DNA of 34,661 bases from Planctomycetota bacterium (lineage in GTDB: Bacteria > Planctomycetota > Planctomycetia > Pirellulales > Pirellulaceae). The DNA is taken from NCBI GenBank assembly GCA_014381825.1, contig JACNKX010000219.1, forward strand, positions 1 through 34,661. The letters are read 5' to 3'. Below, one piece after another: positions 3,798 through 25,602 of the stretch. Made by a program: the position numbers and the translations under genes. Below the pieces are notes generated by a model. The model was not told where the DNA came from. It did no database searches and saw only the letters and a program-made list of their open reading frames with translations. Within the stretch, counting starts at the first letter, position 1, and each line of letters begins with the position of its first letter.

Positions 3798-5216
3798 ATG
3801 ATGTGTCTTGAAAAAGAAAGCTCTGACAAGTCGGAGCACTCCAAAGGAAGACGTACCTTCCTTAAGCAATGTGGCATGGGGTTCGGTTCATTGGCGCTCG
3901 CGGACTTGCTATCGAGTGATGGCCTGGCAACAGAATCCGGCACTCACTTCCCGGGCCGAGCGAAGCATGTGATTCATGTCTTCCTAAATGGAGGCATGTC
4001 GCAGGTCGACACCTTTGATCCAAAGCCGGAACTTACCAAACGCGGCGGCCAGATGCTGCCGTTTGAAAATCTGAAGACGGAGCGTCGAACGGGAGTCGCA
4101 TTGCCATCGCCATTCGAGTTCACGCAGCATGGCAAAAGCGGCATTCCAGTCAGCGATCTCTTTCCGCATCTATCGAAATGCGTGGATGAGATGGCAGTCG
4201 TTCGCTCCATGTACGCGGAGTTGCCGAATCATGAGATGACACTGATGTTGATGAACACGGGCGATCAGCGTCTGGTGCGTCCGAGTCTTGGTTCCTGGCT
4301 GACATGGGGAATGGGCAGCGAGAACCAAAATCTCCCAGGCTTCATCGTCCTGTGTCCCGGTGGTTTACCGGTCGGCGGTGCTGGCAATTGGCGTTCGGCC
4401 TTTCTGCCGGGCGTGTATCAAGGAACGTTGGTTGATACCTCCAAATCCGATCCGACCAAGTTGATTGAGAATATTCGTAACGAACGCCTGTCCGCGGACG
4501 GGCAACGCGAGCAGTTCGAGTTACTTCAAGCAATCAATGCTCGCCATCTCGCCCAGCGTCCCGGAGAAGCCAGCATTGACGCACGTATTCGCTCCTTCGA
4601 GCTGGCGTATCGGATGCAGACCGAAGCGACGGATGCTTTCAATGTGGATGACGAGCCGGAACACATTCTGAAGCTGTACGGAGAAGGTCCGCAAAATCGC
4701 CAGTTATTGATGGCTCGGCGGTTGGTCGAGCGTGGTGTTCGTTTCGTTCAAACGTGGCATGGCAATATGCAACCGTGGGACAGTCATTCCAATATCAAGA
4801 CCGAGCATCGCAACGTGGCGAACCAATGCGACCAGGGGCTCGCCGCACTGATCGTTGATCTCAAACAGAGAGGCTTGCTCGACAAGACGCTGATCCTTTG
4901 CACTGGCGAGTTCGGCAGAACGCCATCGGTGGAGATGGGACAGAACGGTTCTGGTGCATCTCAGGGTCGCGACCACAATCACTGGGGATTTTCGCTGTGG
5001 ATGGCCGGAGGTGGCATCAAGGGCGGCACGATCCATGGAGCCACGGATGAGTTCGGCTTTCGAGCGGTTGAGGATCCGGTCTCGATACACGACTTACATG
5101 CGACGATGTTGCACTTGCTCGGCTACGATCACAAACGTTTGACGTATCGCTACGCCGGTCGAGACTTTCGGCTGACCGACGTTCACGGCAGCGTCGTCAA
5201 GAAAGTCTTGGCCTAA
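3798..5216 (+). CDS. DUF1501 family protein, Tat-exported (first copy)
   Basis: A 472-residue DUF1501 protein, a family related to the alkaline phosphatase/sulfatase fold. The twin-arginine export signal is visible as KGRRTFLKQCGMGFG (RR at 18-19). Family hallmarks include HVFLNGGMSQVDTFDPKP near the N-terminus, WDSH, CTGEFGRTP and the GRDHNHWGFSLWMAGGGIKGG segment, which carry likely metal-binding Asp/His residues. It follows the DUF1549/DUF1553 gene by 74 bases, the standard pairing in planctomycetes. Enzymatic activity is unproven for the family. Start at the first of two adjacent ATGs, preceded by a purine-rich ATGAGAG. A second pair is found on the minus strand at 11496-16242. Confidence 0.92.
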   Translation: MMCLEKESSDKSEHSKGRRTFLKQCGMGFGSLALADLLSSDGLATESGTHFPGRAKHVIHVFLNGGMSQVDTFDPKPELTKRGGQMLPFENLKTERRTGVALPSPFEFTQHGKSGIPVSDLFPHLSKCVDEMAVVRSMYAELPNHEMTLMLMNTGDQRLVRPSLGSWLTWGMGSENQNLPGFIVLCPGGLPVGGAGNWRSAFLPGVYQGTLVDTSKSDPTKLIENIRNERLSADGQREQFELLQAINARHLAQRPGEASIDARIRSFELAYRMQTEATDAFNVDDEPEHILKLYGEGPQNRQLLMARRLVERGVRFVQTWHGNMQPWDSHSNIKTEHRNVANQCDQGLAALIVDLKQRGLLDKTLILCTGEFGRTPSVEMGQNGSGASQGRDHNHWGFSLWMAGGGIKGGTIHGATDEFGFRAVEDPVSIHDLHATMLHLLGYDHKRLTYRYAGRDFRLTDVHGSVVKKVLA

Positions 5217-18133: not shown

Positions 18134-20059
18134 CTAACGTGCCGCGCGCCAAAGCCGAACCGTTCCATCGTTGCCACCGGTCGCTAGAGTGTTGCTCCCA
18201 GGAGCATACTGAATCCAAAACGTGAAGCTGTCGTGTCCATCGCACGACGCATATTGTGTCCACGTCGTTGTATCCCAAAGCCGTACTGAACCATCCCCAC
18301 GCCCAACTGCCATTGTGTTCCCGTCCGGCGACATCGCCAGCGCGCGGACCCACATTTCATGCTGCAGTGTCCGTTCTTCCTCGAAGGTTTCCAAATTCCA
18401 GACCTTGACGGCACCGGATGAATCGGAAGAGGCGAAGTGTTTGCCGTCCGAGGTAAAGACGATTGTCCAGACTGCAAGTTTGTGACCTTTGATCTTGGCG
18501 CGCACTTCCCCAGTTTTGAGATCCCACACGATCAGCTCACCTGGGTCGCCAGTCGTCCAGTTTCCACCACCCGTGATCAGCAACCTTTCATCTGGTGAAA
18601 TAATTGCGCAGTAAATCTGCTGCTTGTGCTCGCGCCAAGTTGCCTTCACTTCGCCTGACTCCACATCCCACACTTTGACCAGACCAGCATCACAGCCACT
18701 TACTAACGTCTTCCCGTCCTTCGTGAAGACTACCGAAGAAACCGCACCGCGGTGACGCTGCTGCGTCTCACGTGTCGAACCATCGCTGATGTTGTCTAGA
18801 AATATCTTTCCGGTGTCGCCACCTGTTGCGAGAATCTTGCCACCCGGGGAGAAAGCCGCACACCGCGTCGTTGGATGCCCTTCGCGCGAAAAGATTAGTT
18901 TCTTGCTCTCCATGTCCCACAGCTCGAACCGCGTCTTGGGGCCACCGACAAACAACTTCTTGCCGTCGGGCGAGTAGGCAATCGTCCAAACAGAATCGGA
19001 TCGTCCATCGATCACAGCGAAAGGCGCAATGCTTCGAACTTCCGGCAGCCAGTAGAGCAATCTGCCATCCAAACCAGCGGAGATTAATCCGTTCTCCGAA
19101 TCGAACACCATCGCCGCCACTGACTCTTCGTGTGTTTTCAAGGACTGAATCTCTCTCCACGTCGCTGTATCCCACAGTTTGATTGTTCCGTCCCAACTGC
19201 CCGTCGCCATTCGCTGGCCGCCAGGATCGAATGCAACCGACCAGATCGCAAATGGATGCGTCCCAAGTGCGATCGGCTCGCGAGCCTCCATCAAGTCGTG
19301 AACGGCGGCAGTTCCGTCAGCGGCTGCGATTACAAGGTGATCGCCATCGGGCGAGAAGGCGAGAGCCGTGACGCGAGAGCGTTCAATCTCAAACAATTGC
19401 GGCTCGGTCGTTGGTCGCGAACCGCCTCCCGCTCTGATGTCGTGCAGTTTTACTTCGCGCGAATGCGAAGCGATTGCCAGTTTCTCAGCGTTCGGCGAGA
19501 AAGCGATCGTTTGCACCGGACTTTGCTCCACTGTCAATTCGCGAATCACTTTGCCGCTGCGAACGTCCCATAGACGGACCTCACCTGCATCGGTGACTCC
19601 CGCCAACAACGCAGAGTTGGCAGAGAAACTCAGAGTCACCGTTCGATCTGACGTCGAAACGTCCCGGAACTTGATTTGATTCGTTTCGAGATCAAGCAGG
19701 GTGACGGTGCCGTCAGGATCGGCGAATGCCAACAACGTCGCATCACGCGAGAGAACGGCACAACCCGGCTCGCTGTCGATTTCTGTGACGAGTTCAGATC
19801 CACTGGATCGGCCAGCTGACCATTGCGATACGCGACCGTCGATATCAACGATACGAATGTGTTGATGGTTTGCCGACATAGCGATACTGAAAGTTGTCGG
19901 GAATCTCGACAGCATTTGGGGCGTGTTACGCAATCGAGTTGGTACCCGTACATTGGCGTCGAGTGCTTGGTATGTCGGGAGATCGTCAGCAACCGTGAAT
20001 TGCCCCCACAAGCATGCCGCTAACAACACAGCGCTGAACTCAAATCGATCGCCGATCAT
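18134..20059 (-). CDS. Exported WD40-repeat beta-propeller protein
   Basis: A 641-residue protein made almost wholly of WD40 repeats after a signal peptide (AVLLAACLWGQFTVADD). Repeat ends are clear: VRLWDVRSG, VKLHDIRAG, IKLWDTATW, FELWDMESK, VKVWDVESG, LIVWDLKTG, VKVWNLETF, VRLWDTTTW and VRLWRAAR, with matching AFSPDG or VFTKDG turns. The count suggests two propellers. The likely role is protein-protein scaffold in the periplasm. The start is only 24 bases downstream of the second, 'restored' stop (20084) of the M56 fusion gene, so it is probably the third gene of the BlaI operon. Confidence 0.88.
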   Translation of the reverse strand: MIGDRFEFSAVLLAACLWGQFTVADDLPTYQALDANVRVPTRLRNTPQMLSRFPTTFSIAMSANHQHIRIVDIDGRVSQWSAGRSSGSELVTEIDSEPGCAVLSRDATLLAFADPDGTVTLLDLETNQIKFRDVSTSDRTVTLSFSANSALLAGVTDAGEVRLWDVRSGKVIRELTVEQSPVQTIAFSPNAEKLAIASHSREVKLHDIRAGGGSRPTTEPQLFEIERSRVTALAFSPDGDHLVIAAADGTAAVHDLMEAREPIALGTHPFAIWSVAFDPGGQRMATGSWDGTIKLWDTATWREIQSLKTHEESVAAMVFDSENGLISAGLDGRLLYWLPEVRSIAPFAVIDGRSDSVWTIAYSPDGKKLFVGGPKTRFELWDMESKKLIFSREGHPTTRCAAFSPGGKILATGGDTGKIFLDNISDGSTRETQQRHRGAVSSVVFTKDGKTLVSGCDAGLVKVWDVESGEVKATWREHKQQIYCAIISPDERLLITGGGNWTTGDPGELIVWDLKTGEVRAKIKGHKLAVWTIVFTSDGKHFASSDSSGAVKVWNLETFEEERTLQHEMWVRALAMSPDGNTMAVGRGDGSVRLWDTTTWTQYASCDGHDSFTFWIQYAPGSNTLATGGNDGTVRLWRAAR

Positions 20060-20083: not shown

Positions 20084-20269
20084 TTACTCGCGTCCGGCAA
20101 CGAAGAAACTTTCGTGAAGAAACCCGGTCAAGATGCGGCTGGCAGGATCATGTGTCCAGTAGTTACCGTCAATCACGAACTTGTAGCGATGCTCTCCCTC
20201 TTTGACGACCGTATCAACGTGATAGATGCCATCTCCATCTGAGTCATTCAATGGATTGTTCACATTGCT
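20084..20269 (-). pseudogene. In-frame continuation of the M56 fusion past TGA: rest of a CBM48-like domain
   Basis: Directly after the TGA at 20270-20272 the same frame stays open for 61 codons to TAA at 20084-20086. The peptide contains NDSDGDGIYHVDTVV, GEHRYKFVIDGNYWTHDPAS and FFVAGRE: the second half of a CBM48/AMPK glycogen-binding-like domain (YKFVIDG followed by W and DP is diagnostic). The first half (TIHLAGTFNE) is the end of the upstream reading frame. In the family, the residue after GxFN[DE] is Trp, so TGA replaces what would be TGG. This is either coding sequence reached by readthrough or the lost tail of the upstream gene. Confidence 0.85.
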
Positions 20270-23200
20270 TCATTCGTTAAATGTTCCCGCAAGGTGAATC
20301 GTCTTGGCTGGCCGATCGGGCTTGTAAGTAAAGCGCGCACGATAGTTGCCACCACCGATCGCCGTGAGTTGCGGTTCGGGTAACGTCAGATTTTGGTTGA
20401 GGAACACGCCTTCGAAGTATCCGATCATCATCTCTTCCCAAGTTTGTTCGCCCCATCGCACGGGAATCGTTGGGTCGGGATTCGATAGGTTGCGTTCTGA
20501 GTTGTCGAAGTAGGCGATGCATTTGAGCAACGTTCCCTCCGGCATGAATTTCGGCTTGGCGAGCTTGTAGGTATTCTGCCAATTGAAGTCGAACCGTGGG
20601 ACGTCAAGAAGAATCTCGCGTGAACCGTTCGGATACGTCGCCTCGAAGCGGAACGCTTTGCCTCGATAGTGCATGTGTGGGACAAGCGCGTGGAGTTCCA
20701 TATCGTGCGAGAACCGGTGAGCGGCTTCGACGCGATGGTTCTCCGCGTTAGGTGGGATTTCAAAATCCAGATTCGCAGCCACGCCGGTCTGCATCGTATG
20801 GCGGATTGTCTTTGAGTCGGCGAAATAGAGTCCGATTTGACTCTGGTCGTGACGCTCGCTGCCGTCAGGCGTGTAGTGAATTTGAAAGACCAGCGTCGAA
20901 CCAGGTGGGACGTATCGCGCGACGCCTTCTTCCATCTCCATCGGCGGTGAGCCAGGCACATATCCGCCGACCGTCTCGAACCCGACTCCACGCTCCTCCA
21001 AGATCGGATCTCCACCAGGTGGATTGATAAAGACGATGATATGATGAACGACACTTTGTACACCGGGGCGGATCTCGGAAGCCCGTACCCACGTGCCTTC
21101 GGTGAAGCCCGGATCGACGGTCACGTATTGGTAATCGACGACACCCGTCGCGGTGACCGTAATTGGTTCAGGCATCGTCAGCACTAGATCCGGCTCGCCC
21201 AACGCCCAACCATCAATGAACTCGCGTTTCGGTGGTAGATCTTCGTCGGAGCCCTTCGGCACGCCATTCTCAAGCCACTGATATAGCACTTGTTTCTCTG
21301 CTTCCGGCATCTGCTCGTCATTGGCGAAATGCCCATACTTCGGACTCGCATGCCAGGGCGGCATGCGCTGGTCTTCGACGACTTCACAAATCGTCTCTGC
21401 CCAAGCAGCCACCTCTTCGTACGATTGCATCGCGAACGGCGCGATGCCATCCTCGCGATGACACTCGACGCAGCGACGTTGCACGATCCGCGAAACTTGT
21501 TTCGCATAAGTGATCTCGCCAGTCGGAGCTACTCTCGTGACTCGACCAATGTGGCAACCAACGGACTCGGTCTGCGGCGTACTCACCGGTTCCCCGGCTA
21601 ACATCTCGTTGATCGCATCTGTCAAGTAATGCGTTTGCGGCTCGGCACGTGCATAGCCGATGCCAAATTGATCGTCGATGCGTCCCCAGTACCGGACGAT
21701 TCGTTCCGCGTCGAGCAGAAACACCTCGGGGGTTCTTTCGGCTTGGAATAGATCCGCGACACGATTACCCGGATCTTTCAGCAACGTAAATGCGATACCG
21801 TGCCTTCGTGCGTAGTGTCCAAGTTCGGTCGGCGTGTCTTGTTGATTGGAGCTAATGCCGACAAATGCCACACCCTGCGATTTATATTTTTCAGCGAGGT
21901 TCGCCAGGCGTGATCCATAAAGTTTCGCCAACGGACACTCCGTGCCGATAAACGCAACGACAACGATATCGCTGTCGCTGTCGCTCAAGGTATGCTCAGC
22001 ACCAAGATAGTCCAGCAGCTCAAAGTCCTCGATCCTGCGACCGATTTGCCTGTCTTCTGGAGTTGTCGACGCGTTTTCATCGCCAGCTCCTGCCGAAGCT
22101 TGCTGCGCCCAAGTCTGCAAGATCATCGGCGTGATTACAGCAGCGACAAGAACGACCAGGAACGTCGTCCATCCTGCTCTCGTTAAGCGGACGTTTGAAG
22201 GTTCTCTGTCGAGTAACCGTATGACACGGCGTTTGAAGTCCGATTGATTTCCACCAGATGCGGCGAGCGCGGCCGCTTGTGGCGTGGGCTCTCCACGCCG
22301 CAGCAGTGAAGAAAGTTCCGCCATTCGCACCAAGGCGTCCGCGTAATGCACGCGTTCCCAGCCGGCGGCGAGTACGATGTCGTCACTGGCGTTCTCACGT
22401 TCGACGTCGATTCGACGGCTGATATACCAAACAGCTGGATGGAAGAAAATCACCGCTTCCACCACACGTTGCAGCAGATTCATGAGCGGGTCGTAGCGGC
22501 GCAGGTGTGCCAACTCGTGCGTGATAAGCGTTTCCAGTTGATCTGGCGACAGACCGCTCGCCAGCGACGCCGGTAACAGAATCATCGGTCGTGCAATACC
22601 AACGACTACCGGAACGGAGATTTGCTCGCAGTAGGCGATCGCAGGTGCCACGCGCAACCCGATTCGTTTGGCTTGGCGTGCGATTCGATCGGGTAACTCA
22701 ATGTCGTTGATCGCGACAGCGGCTCTTCGCAACTTGTGGCCGCCCCATACGCCACTTGCCAAACGCACAATCATTGCGAGGACACAAGTTAGATAAGCAA
22801 TCGTGATATAAGGTGCAATCGCTGGAAGTAGCGAGCGGCGAACTTGCTCTAGTTCGTTGGCGGATGTTATCGGTACGTTGCGATTGGAGTTCGCCGTGCT
22901 GCCTCCTTCCAGAAGGACCGCCGCCTCAGCAACGTCGGTCTCCGCGCGAACTTGCCGACTCGACTGGTTGCGCTCCGGGATGGAGCGATCAGCGATCAAC
23001 GCTTCAGATATCTCTGTGAAGCCGTTTGCTGTAAGGACATTGCTTGCCTCATCTGTGCGGCCCAACCGCTCGCTCTCTCGGTTCAACGCTACACTCTCGC
23101 TGCTCTCCGAATGCGCGCCCAATAGAACAAACGTGATCGGAAGGCAAGTCAACATTGCCAGCATCGCAACGACGTTCAGTAAGTATCTCGATTGTGCAGA

Positions 23201-23329
23201 GCCGCGTCTGATCAGACAATCCAAGGTGAATGCGAGGATCGCAACAAGACTCCCCTGCCAAAGGAAATGAACTAACGTTTGCGCAAGTCGTAGCGAAAAC
23301 GAGTCGTCGAGCCAAAGAGATGGGTTCAT
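20270..23329 (-). CDS. BlaR1-like M56 peptidase fused to redoxin, CxxCH heme site and PHM-like copper monooxygenase
   Basis: A 1019-residue membrane protein. Residues 1-405 form an M56/BlaR1-type sensor: hydrophobic segments at ~13-38, 50-70, 168-192 and 388-405 and the zinc-protease motif HELAH (271-275), with ENASDD following at ~312. No penicillin-binding domain is present. Residues ~424-580 form an AhpC/TSA-type redoxin (GTECPLAKLYGSRL, FVGISSN); ~605-700 contain CVECH (620-624), a c-type heme motif; ~715-985 resemble copper type II monooxygenases (PHM/DBH family): VHHIIVFINPPGG (His762/763), QIHY (818), M846 and HALVPHMHYRG (885-887). The chain ends inside a CBM48-like domain at a TGA. 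It starts 9 bases after the BlaI gene, so BlaI is its expected cleavage target or repressor partner. The enzymatic part would sit outside the membrane (inference). Confidence 0.88.
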   Translation of the reverse strand: MNPSLWLDDSFSLRLAQTLVHFLWQGSLVAILAFTLDCLIRRGSAQSRYLLNVVAMLAMLTCLPITFVLLGAHSESSESVALNRESERLGRTDEASNVLTANGFTEISEALIADRSIPERNQSSRQVRAETDVAEAAVLLEGGSTANSNRNVPITSANELEQVRRSLLPAIAPYITIAYLTCVLAMIVRLASGVWGGHKLRRAAVAINDIELPDRIARQAKRIGLRVAPAIAYCEQISVPVVVGIARPMILLPASLASGLSPDQLETLITHELAHLRRYDPLMNLLQRVVEAVIFFHPAVWYISRRIDVERENASDDIVLAAGWERVHYADALVRMAELSSLLRRGEPTPQAAALAASGGNQSDFKRRVIRLLDREPSNVRLTRAGWTTFLVVLVAAVITPMILQTWAQQASAGAGDENASTTPEDRQIGRRIEDFELLDYLGAEHTLSDSDSDIVVVAFIGTECPLAKLYGSRLANLAEKYKSQGVAFVGISSNQQDTPTELGHYARRHGIAFTLLKDPGNRVADLFQAERTPEVFLLDAERIVRYWGRIDDQFGIGYARAEPQTHYLTDAINEMLAGEPVSTPQTESVGCHIGRVTRVAPTGEITYAKQVSRIVQRRCVECHREDGIAPFAMQSYEEVAAWAETICEVVEDQRMPPWHASPKYGHFANDEQMPEAEKQVLYQWLENGVPKGSDEDLPPKREFIDGWALGEPDLVLTMPEPITVTATGVVDYQYVTVDPGFTEGTWVRASEIRPGVQSVVHHIIVFINPPGGDPILEERGVGFETVGGYVPGSPPMEMEEGVARYVPPGSTLVFQIHYTPDGSERHDQSQIGLYFADSKTIRHTMQTGVAANLDFEIPPNAENHRVEAAHRFSHDMELHALVPHMHYRGKAFRFEATYPNGSREILLDVPRFDFNWQNTYKLAKPKFMPEGTLLKCIAYFDNSERNLSNPDPTIPVRWGEQTWEEMMIGYFEGVFLNQNLTLPEPQLTAIGGGNYRARFTYKPDRPAKTIHLAGTFNE

Positions 23330-23338
23330 AGTATCGTC

Positions 23339-23728
23339 CTAGGATTCTTTTAGCTTGCGGTTGATAATCCGCCGGAGCTCCTTTAGCTCGTCCGCGTCAA
23401 CGTTGTTTGCGTCGAACAACTTCAACAAAACGGCCGACGTCGAGCCGTCGAACACACGATCGACGACGTCGTTCAACATCCGCTCCGAAACGGTCGCCTC
23501 GTTCAATCGTGGCGAGAACAAGAAAGAGTTTCCTCGCTTCTTCCGCATCAGATACTGCTTATCGACCATCGTATTCAGCGTCGTGATGACAGAAGTTTTG
23601 GCCAATTCGCGTCCCTCGTCCGCCAGAACACCTTGGACTTCGCGGGCCAAAAGCGGCGACTCTCGCCATAGTACCTTGAGTATTAGAAGCTCTAACTCGG
23701 TGGGTTGCTTCGAAGCTGGTCGTGCCAT
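23339..23728 (-). CDS. BlaI/MecI-family winged-helix repressor
   Basis: A 129-residue BlaI/MecI/CopY-type regulator. The N-terminal winged helix shows PTELELLILKVLWRESPLLAREVQ, then the recognition region AKTSVITTLNTMVDKQYLMRKKRGNSFLFSP; the C-terminal helices (LNDVVDRVFDG, DELKELRRIINRKLKE) fit the dimerisation domain. In the known systems BlaI dimers repress their own operon and the adjacent BlaR1/M56 protein relieves repression by proteolysis. Here the M56 gene begins 9 bases downstream. Two matching 16-bp inverted repeats upstream are its likely operators. Start at ATG 23728; the Shine-Dalgarno is weak. Confidence 0.93.
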   Translation of the reverse strand: MARPASKQPTELELLILKVLWRESPLLAREVQGVLADEGRELAKTSVITTLNTMVDKQYLMRKKRGNSFLFSPRLNEATVSERMLNDVVDRVFDGSTSAVLLKLFDANNVDADELKELRRIINRKLKES

Positions 23729-23748: not shown

Positions 23749-23764
23749 GTCTAGTTTCATAGAC
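23749..23764. promoter_or_regulatory. Predicted BlaI operator 1
   Basis: GTCTAGTTTCATAGAC: inverted repeat GTCTA-N6-TAGAC, extended by one more C-G pair on the outside. It lies 21 bases upstream of the blaI-like start codon and overlaps the end of the predicted -10 box, where bound repressor would block transcription. Read on the minus strand it differs from operator 2 at a single base. Confidence 0.75.
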
Positions 23765-23791
23765 GATATACGCTTGCCCGGCACTCGTCAA
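23763..23791 (-). promoter_or_regulatory. Predicted promoter of the BlaI-M56-WD40 operon
   Basis: On the minus strand TTGACG (23791-23786) is followed after 17 bases by TATCGT (23768-23763), a sigma70-like -35/-10 arrangement with a good -35 and a fair -10. Initiation would fall inside operator 1. The position between the two operators supports autoregulation. Confidence 0.55.
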
Positions 23792-23808: not shown

Positions 23809-23824
23809 GTCTATAAAACTAGAC
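23809..23824. promoter_or_regulatory. Predicted BlaI operator 2
   Basis: GTCTATAAAACTAGAC: inverted repeat GTCTA-N6-TAGAC. The centre lies 60 bp from that of operator 1, and the orientation is opposite: one operator is the reverse complement of the other with a single mismatch. It sits just upstream of the -35 box and could also influence the divergent oxidoreductase gene at 23959. Confidence 0.75.
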
Positions 23825-25020: not shown

Positions 25021-25602
25021 ATGTCGCGTGTGCTAATGATTGCTGTGGCTGTGTCGTTCGTAACAACGGCCGCTCCGGCCGCCGAGAAGATTGTGAGCGG
25101 GCCGCAAGCTGGCGAAAAGGTCACCGGTTTCTTTGACTTTAGCGGCGTGAAGTGTGGCGGTGCGACGGACCGCTATGCGGTTGGTACGAAGCCAAGGTAT
25201 TACTGAGCCTATCACGGTCTTGTCGTCCTGGTATTCACGCGGACGTTCGACGACAACTTGGCCAGTTTGGTCAAAGATATCGATGGTATCATTGAGAAAC
25301 ATCCCGAGAAAAAAATCGGCTCGTATGTCAATTTTTTGGGCGATGACATGGAGCAATTGACAGCGGCAGCAATGGAGTTTGGCGAGAAGCACACATTCAA
25401 CCGAGTCCCGTTGCTCGTGCCACATACCTTCAAGAACGGCCCGAAACGATTGAAGCTTCATTCAGACGCTGAGACGACGGTCATCGTCTACGAACTTATT
25501 CCCGGCCGCGTAGTCAAAGCGAATCACGCGTTCGGCGTAGGTGGGCTCAATCCGACCTCGATCAACGCGATCGTCGCCGACGTTGAAAAGCACTTACCCT
25601 AG
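25021..25602 (+). pseudogene. Exported thioredoxin-like protein interrupted by one in-frame TGA
   Basis: The frame from ATG 25021 encodes a signal peptide (LMIAVAVSFVTTAAPAAEK) and GEKVTGFFDFSGVKC, then meets TGA at 25204-25206 (codon 62) after RYY. The same frame continues without a further stop to TAG at 25600-25602: AYHGLVVLVFTRTFDDNLAS, EKKIGSYVNFLGDD, TFNRVPLLVPHTF, TTVIVYELIPGRVVKANHAF. This is a thioredoxin-fold protein seen in planctomycetes. In relatives as I remember them, a Cys follows the aromatic pair at this point, so TGA may stand for TGC/TGT; Trp is an alternative. The Shine-Dalgarno GGGAG precedes the ATG. A frameshift is excluded because the frame is unchanged across the stop. 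Either a nonsense mutation or sequencing error, or recoding (selenocysteine) occurs. Confidence 0.8.

Follow-up and report, generated by a model that had tools for sequence, protein, structure and literature searches.

In a 34,661-nt stretch of DNA from a planctomycete of the family Pirellulaceae (contig JACNKX010000219.1, assembly GCA_014381825.1; hereafter the window), a single gene on the minus strand encodes a BlaR1-type M56 membrane protease continued, in the same chain, by a redoxin domain, a c-type heme motif and a PHM-like copper domain. This fused gene (20270-23329, ATG to TGA, 1019 amino acids) stands between a blaI repressor gene, itself preceded by two operator-like dyads, and a gene for a WD40 protein. 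On balance, we think it probable that these genes form a self-regulating BlaI-M56 receptor operon, in which the outer part of the receptor is a former secreted copper-redox enzyme acting as the sensor. This reading starts from features visible in the sequence itself: the domain order, intact residues for catalysis and metal binding, an adjacent blaI, the dyads with their promoter-like site, a conserved gene downstream and one shared origin of the fused form. Features of the operon given below lie on the minus strand; stop codons crowd the plus strand of 20084-23329.

A BlaR1-type protease without a beta-lactam sensor

The M56 membrane protease part covers residues 1-405 (22115-23329). Its Pfam match to Peptidase_M56 (PF05569) extends over residues 158-370 (22220-22858) with an E-value of 1.2e-32 and 113.7 bits against a cut-off of 31, and places it in this family. 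The HELAH zinc and catalytic motif (residues 271-275, 22505-22519) falls in conserved columns. Among 98 aligned M56 rows, H271, E272, H275, R278, D280, E312, D316 and R368 are each found in 97-100% of the ungapped rows, and we take E312, the downstream Glu, to be the third zinc ligand. The H271-D316 spacing (45) equals the H201-D246 spacing of Staphylococcus aureus BlaR1, for which residues H201, E202, D246 and R294 are named in PMC9834060. No beta-lactam sensor was detected, as judged by the absence of any penicillin-binding or class D beta-lactamase-like family among the eight Pfam matches to E 0.1. The NCBIfam model blaR1_generic gave 66.2 bits against a cut-off of 400 and covered residues 168-396 only.

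Hydropathy identified hydrophobic segments at residues 15-40, 45-71, 170-188 and 386-404, the last of which (22118-22174) is the final one before the outer part. At three of these, Lys and Arg are in excess on the side predicted to face inward. These segments fit the N-out, C-out layout given for BlaR1 in the same paper (PMC9834060), with a predicted topology in which the protease is cytoplasmic and both a loop of residues 72-169 and the redoxin-PHM part are outside. By hydropathy and charge, the redoxin-PHM part would therefore face the periplasm, and the predicted outer loop corresponds in position to EL1 of BlaR1.

The predicted outer part: a redoxin, heme-motif and PHM-like copper module

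The redoxin domain (residues 429-600, 21530-22045) is matched by Pfam AhpC-TSA/Redoxin over residues 429-547 (E 2.3e-17) and resembles PDB 2cvb (E 1.4e-23). The first Cys of the CxxC is Gly here and Cys465 is kept, in a column near-invariant among 40 aligned relatives; with this single conserved Cys, the domain lacks the CXXC of thiol-disulfide redoxins such as TlpA and ResA. It is followed by the c-type heme motif CVECH (residues 620-624, 21458-21472) and, downstream, by Met656, which may be the heme axial ligand. Pfam heme matches around residues 610-687 remained below threshold (Haem_bd, 23 bits against a cut-off of 27).

Alignment, profile and model together delimit a heme and PHM/dopamine beta-hydroxylase (DBH)-like copper module at about residues 607-976 (20402-21511). 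We aligned the window protein with 51 of 90 PHM open reading frames (ORFs), fragments and near-repeats being omitted; residue numbers are alignment position plus 599. Residues C620, C623, H624, M656, H762, H763, H818, H885, H887, M967 and M968 are invariant in the 52 members. They include all six PHM copper-ligand positions (H762, H763, H818, H885, H887 and M967/M968), none of which the fused copy has lost, and their order HH, H, HxH, M is the order in PHM. This assignment uses the ligand numbering of PHM, several numbers of which appear in the PDB titles of the structural matches described below.

The sequence of the fused protein alone gave no Cu2_monoox match in Pfam. Among the 52 members, Cu2_monoox_C was matched by 23, the window not being one of them, and Cu2_monooxygen by two (E 0.01), while a profile built from all 52 matched dopamine beta-hydroxylase with an E-value of 2.5e-6. 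An AlphaFold2 model of residues 600-1019 reached a mean predicted local distance difference test score (pLDDT) of 86.3 and a predicted TM-score (pTM) of 0.84, and the 31 best Foldseek matches to this model were all PHM or DBH (best E 4.9e-14, TM-score by target up to 0.68, identity 16-19%). The model thus points to a PHM/DBH fold with the six ligand positions in place.

A prediction made earlier from the sequence alone (the original prediction) had read M56, redoxin, CVECH, HH and HMH in one frame, HH and HMH being assigned to a PHM-like domain. The single frame is borne out by Pfam and by the residues located above, and the PHM-like reading by the family profile, the 23 Cu2_monoox_C matches and Foldseek, the single-sequence Pfam search giving none. 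Of the families it had proposed, Peptidase_M56 and AhpC-TSA were found in the window, Cu2_monoox_C was not, and the tail family was matched in two relatives, L012 and L013, which are described below.

Paired dyads upstream of blaI

The blaI gene (23339-23728, 129 amino acids) is separated from the start codon of the fused gene by 9 bp. Its product belongs to Penicillinase_R (Pfam E 1.4e-26) and aligns to MecI (1okr) and BlaI (1sd4). Upstream of blaI are two exact GTCTA-N6-TAGAC dyads, distal (23809-23824) and proximal (23749-23764), together with a promoter-like pair TTGACG-N17-TATCGT: the -35-like hexamer TTGACG (23786-23791) is located between the dyads and the -10-like hexamer TATCGT (23763-23768) overlaps the edge of the proximal one.

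The exact GTCTA-N6-TAGAC sequence is present at three sites in the 9.69-Mb source genome, and the reversed pattern at one. The shorter TCTA-N6-TAGA gave 22 sites, spread over 12 of the 42 regions upstream of blaI taken from relatives and the source genome; in 500 mononucleotide shuffles the mean was 0.17 and the largest value 2. A search of 98 genomes for pairs of such dyads 28-58 bp apart returned ten places in eight genomes, and the only such place in the source genome is upstream of this operon. All ten are directly upstream of a blaI. An M56 frame follows this blaI at nine of them, the tenth (L211) having none within its stretch; TTGAC lies between the dyads in eight and the full promoter-like pair in seven. 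The dyad is absent from five loci carrying redoxin-PHM genes without M56 (L219-L223). With all ten paired dyads upstream of a blaI, and seven of them with a promoter-like pair, the dyad appears to be the operator for this subgroup of blaI genes, which points to self-regulation.

The third exact dyad of the source genome (G000:C20:24936-24951, or L218 4937-4952) stands 1 bp ahead of the ATG that opens a 260-amino acid ORF with hydrophobic stretches and without a Pfam match at 1e-5. This dyad is possibly a second BlaI target, or a chance occurrence; because the reversed-pattern control also yields one site, we left it as a weak target.

The fusion is found in two genomes

Among 79 loci found in a contig search, only one carries M56 in the same frame: L012, from a Pirellulales metagenome-assembled genome (G062), at 66% identity. 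The other 78 have no M56 or BlaI match within the stretch examined. Whole-protein searches recovered the fusion, among the matches listed, in two of 98 relatives (the source genome and G062), in two of 396 genomes of the order and in one of 392 of the phylum (the source genome), the three sets overlapping. In the order and phylum searches the two best candidates per genome were scored (E 1e-205 and 1e-195), so that these searches may have passed over fusions whose parts had diverged strongly.

Unjoined copies of both halves are common, as would be seen if two neighbouring genes had been joined here by an assembly or sequencing error. L012, however, belongs to another family of the order and has the same junction, the same domain order and the same downstream WD40 gene. 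We therefore rejected an origin by assembly error, and joining by error of either kind is hardly credible.

Redoxin-PHM ORFs without M56 number 91 (some loci being counted twice), three of them in the source genome itself. In L013, L191 and L192, all of one genus (L191 and L013 apparently from a single genome), such genes have a signal-peptide-like start, as judged by eye. Their tail and their WD40 neighbour correspond to those of the fused gene, and neither M56 nor blaI is present within the surrounding sequence examined. The fused protein of the window pairs with that of L012 both in an M56 tree (45 nearest of 98 rows, support 100/99) and in a redoxin-PHM tree (34 chosen rows, 100/95). In the latter the WD40-linked copies join next (100/100), and outside them fall another 11 copies that have the tail and no M56. 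The fused form has a single shared origin, most simply explained by one fusion event that placed BlaI-M56 ahead of an existing enzyme-WD40 pair. The stand-alone redoxin-heme-PHM-CBM enzyme would be the older form. As the roots are midpoints, used for drawing only, the argument for this direction is that the fused form is rare.

An in-frame stop and the downstream gene

The original prediction named no strand, and had the frame open to 20084 and ending in a CBM48-like tail. The protein in fact ends at 1019 amino acids, at an in-frame TGA (20270-20272). The tail is nevertheless encoded in frame: the CBM48/AMPK1_CBM domain begins within the protein (residues 985-1019, 20273-20377) and lies mostly past the TGA (20087-20269), in a remainder (20084-20269) closed by a TAA at 20084-20086. 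Intact tails are matched by AMPK1_CBM in L012 (E 6.4e-11) and L013 (E 3.3e-8), while in the window the part of the tail past the TGA, from a domain split by this stop, reaches 23.8 bits against a cut-off of 26.8.

Past the TGA, the frame continues open to the point where it ends in L012, and its sequence is still conserved. Comparison of this stretch with L012 gave 23.9 nonsynonymous differences over 143.3 sites and 32.1 synonymous differences over 39.7 sites; the stretch therefore stayed constrained until recently. The TGA would then be a recent stop, or an assembly error, or a polymorphism. A stop within a domain that L012 and L013 retain in full would also be seen if the gene were decaying, the TGA cutting the tail of a fused protein no longer under selection. 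We regard decay as improbable, given that the protease keeps its catalytic residues, that no metal ligand is lost, and that the frame past the TGA is open and conserved. Selenocysteine at this TGA was considered and rejected, as L012 and L013 have a non-cysteine residue in that column; the source genome does carry a tRNA-Sec gene (67 bits against a gathering score of 47; tRNA-SeC by ARAGORN).

Stops within frames were also seen elsewhere. Another M56 gene of the source genome (L172, about position 4295, G000:C75) contains a TGA in frame near the start of its M56 domain, and a redoxin-PHM-CBM gene without M56 (L182, G017:C260) has an in-frame TAG within the redoxin domain.

The downstream WD40 gene (18134-20059, 641 amino acids, by Pfam) starts 210 bp after the TGA and 24 bp after the TAA, and its product has a signal-peptide-like start, as judged by eye. 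It is also present in L012 (58% identity) and L013 (48% identity).

Varied outer parts among BlaI-M56 proteins

To place the fused protein among other M56 proteins, we used loci taken from a similarity-ranked list of matches to this M56, among those listed, and from the source genome's own M56 genes; the counts are consequently not those of a random sample. A blaI is directly upstream of 83 of 99 distinct M56 ORFs from the source genome and relatives, and of 75 of the 81 that are not cut by the end of a locus. C-terminal parts longer than 120 amino acids were scanned at E 1e-5 in 87 of 89 cases (L155:348-2510 and L237:5078-6484 were left out), the family tallies being those of the 25 commonest of 80 and of 49 families. 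CarboxypepD_reg was matched in 35, AhpC-TSA in eight (the window and L179/L012 included) and LRR_4 in seven; further matches were to HEAT_2 (4/44), WD40 (3/44), secretin (2/43), PSCyt2 (2/43) and S41 peptidase (1/43). At least five more M56 proteins match a redoxin family: a CXXC is present in L250, L254 and L280, none was seen in L225, and L276 was identified by its Pfam match only. The heme-PHM part is fused to M56 in two genomes only among those surveyed, L012 showing the same domain order as the fused protein of the window.

Because a varied outer part is usual here, any surprise at an outer part other than a beta-lactam sensor applies to the whole set. The proposal of the original prediction that a redox/copper module stands in place of this sensor is supported, in a gene next to its own blaI and dyads. 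The reporting of redox state, copper or an oxidised substrate to BlaI, which it further suggested, is a putative role. Its claim of novelty holds for the heme-PHM element, which was not met elsewhere; it does not extend to the variety of M56 outer parts, redoxins included. Tentatively, and with rather less assurance than for the operon itself, we suggest that planctomycetes possess a large, apparently undescribed class of proteolytic one-step receptors, made of self-regulating blaI-M56 pairs (many acting through a paired dyad) with a freely exchanged outer domain, and that here a captured secreted copper-heme-redox enzyme, through its own metal or redox state, directly gates a cytoplasmic protease and its own synthesis.

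Other members of the set showed features of their own. M56 proteins beside blaI carry in the same frame a secretin domain in L171 (G000:C151) and a laminin-G lectin domain in L163 (10042-16317, G000:C65). Several very similar M56 genes are close together in G083:C42 and G083:C35 (L235, L237, L240, L242 and L243), and three of them (L235, L242 and L243) are without a blaI directly upstream.

Sensor or effector

In the operon as we propose it, BlaI would bind the two dyads around the promoter and repress blaI, the fused protease gene and the WD40 gene. The M56 protease would face the cytoplasm, and the last membrane helix would carry the redoxin-heme-copper module outward. A change in this module, whether in its thiol state, in the redox state of heme or copper or upon substrate binding, would alter the protease, which would cut BlaI; derepression of the operon would then supply more enzyme-receptor together with the exported WD40 partner. 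BlaI binding, BlaI cleavage, the signal, the topology and the role of the module as sensor are the parts of this scheme that we infer.

Several observations weigh against it. Charges are even around segment 170-188, and hydropathy also flags residues 225-257 and 455-473, which we assign to the folded domains of the protease and the redoxin. A model of the full chain was made (L012 as first row) and is poor over M56, with block pLDDT of about 30-57 and two of 40 rows covering this part, for which reasons no domain arrangement was drawn from it. At the level of regulation, the dyad is found in only 12 of the 42 blaI upstream regions and is absent, as TCTA-N6-TAGA, from the other ten M56 loci of the source genome; the reversed double-dyad control returned one place in each of four of the 98 genomes; and six of the 81 uncut M56 ORFs have no blaI upstream. 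A blaI before L012 is not visible because its contig begins inside the M56 part, and the CBM tail is truncated by the stop in the source genome. Finally, S. aureus BlaI is cut before Phe102, described in PMC9834060 as near-invariant in BlaI. This residue aligns with Leu104 here, Phe105 being next; of 88 rows, 68% of those without a gap in this column have Leu. With Leu104 at this place and Phe105 following, the usual cleavage site may be displaced or replaced in this BlaI.

The main rival explanation takes the redoxin-heme-PHM part as an effector enzyme, which the fusion anchors to the membrane and brings under a BlaI-M56 switch, the signal being read by the WD40 partner or by M56 itself, for instance through the 72-169 loop. 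In its favour, the module often occurs without M56 (the 91 ORFs above), every metal ligand is kept, as expected of a working enzyme, and the long predicted outer loop matches in place the EL1 of BlaR1 (PMC9834060); that the operon has the source genome's only double-dyad place also suits a switched enzyme. The position of the module is, however, the one occupied by the sensor in BlaR1, and relatives put many other domains there, in a manner resembling sensor swapping. We consider the effector role rather unlikely, and retain the module as the putative sensor.

Another gene in the window

On the plus strand, positions 25021-25602 hold a candidate thioredoxin-like selenoprotein gene with an in-frame TGA at 25204-25206. 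Among eight homologous loci in relatives, this TGA aligns with TGA in L297, L303 and L304 and with Cys in L299, L300 and L302; L298 and L301 gave no reading at this column. In the C-x-x-U motif of this gene, Arg replaces the partner Cys. Nothing recognised as this selenoprotein gene was found, among the matches listed, in a literature search.

Comparison with known systems

The openly licensed PMC literature, an incomplete body, yielded among the matches listed nothing on planctomycete BlaI-M56 fusions or on M56 combined with a copper monooxygenase. What appears new, as not found in the literature searched, is the joining of a BlaR1-type protease to a PHM-like copper enzyme, along with the wide range of outer parts in planctomycete BlaI-M56 pairs. 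BlaR1/MecR1 have been studied as a beta-lactam switch; swapped outer domains, if true, would show a general receptor plan and offer natural sensor swaps for asking how a signal crosses the membrane, and the enzyme here would be its own receptor. Sequence alone also suggests the likely target of a system wherever the paired dyad is present.

The operon resembles BlaR1/MecR1-BlaI/MecI in its catalytic residues, predicted topology, adjacent blaI and dyads at a promoter-like site, and differs from it in that a redoxin-heme-PHM part replaces the penicillin-binding domain and that the P1' Phe is not at the aligned position. The Mycobacterium tuberculosis homologue of BlaR1 has, according to PMC9834060, a similar M56 protease without an equivalent sensor domain; both are thus without a beta-lactam sensor, whereas here a large other module occupies that place. 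With other BlaI-M56 genes (L151-L178, L224-L283) the operon shares the blaI-M56 pair and, with the nearest, the TCTA-N6-TAGA double dyad. Their C-terminal parts include carboxypeptidase-regulatory, LRR, WD40, HEAT, PQQ, secretin, lectin and redoxin domains, heme-PHM being found only in L179/L012.

Stand-alone redoxin-CXXCH-PHM(-CBM) proteins, such as that of L013, Rhodopirellula sp. JC639, have the same domain order, ligands and tail and, in one genus, the WD40 neighbour. They differ in beginning, as judged by eye, with a signal-peptide-like start, and neither M56 nor blaI accompanies them in the sequence examined. The likeness to PHM and dopamine beta-hydroxylase lies in the predicted fold and the six copper-ligand positions; the putative enzyme described here is bacterial, distant in sequence across the 31 Foldseek hits, and attached to a heme site and a redoxin. 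All the parts are known, and we regard their combination as a variant of the M56-BlaI switch rather than as a beta-lactam receptor.

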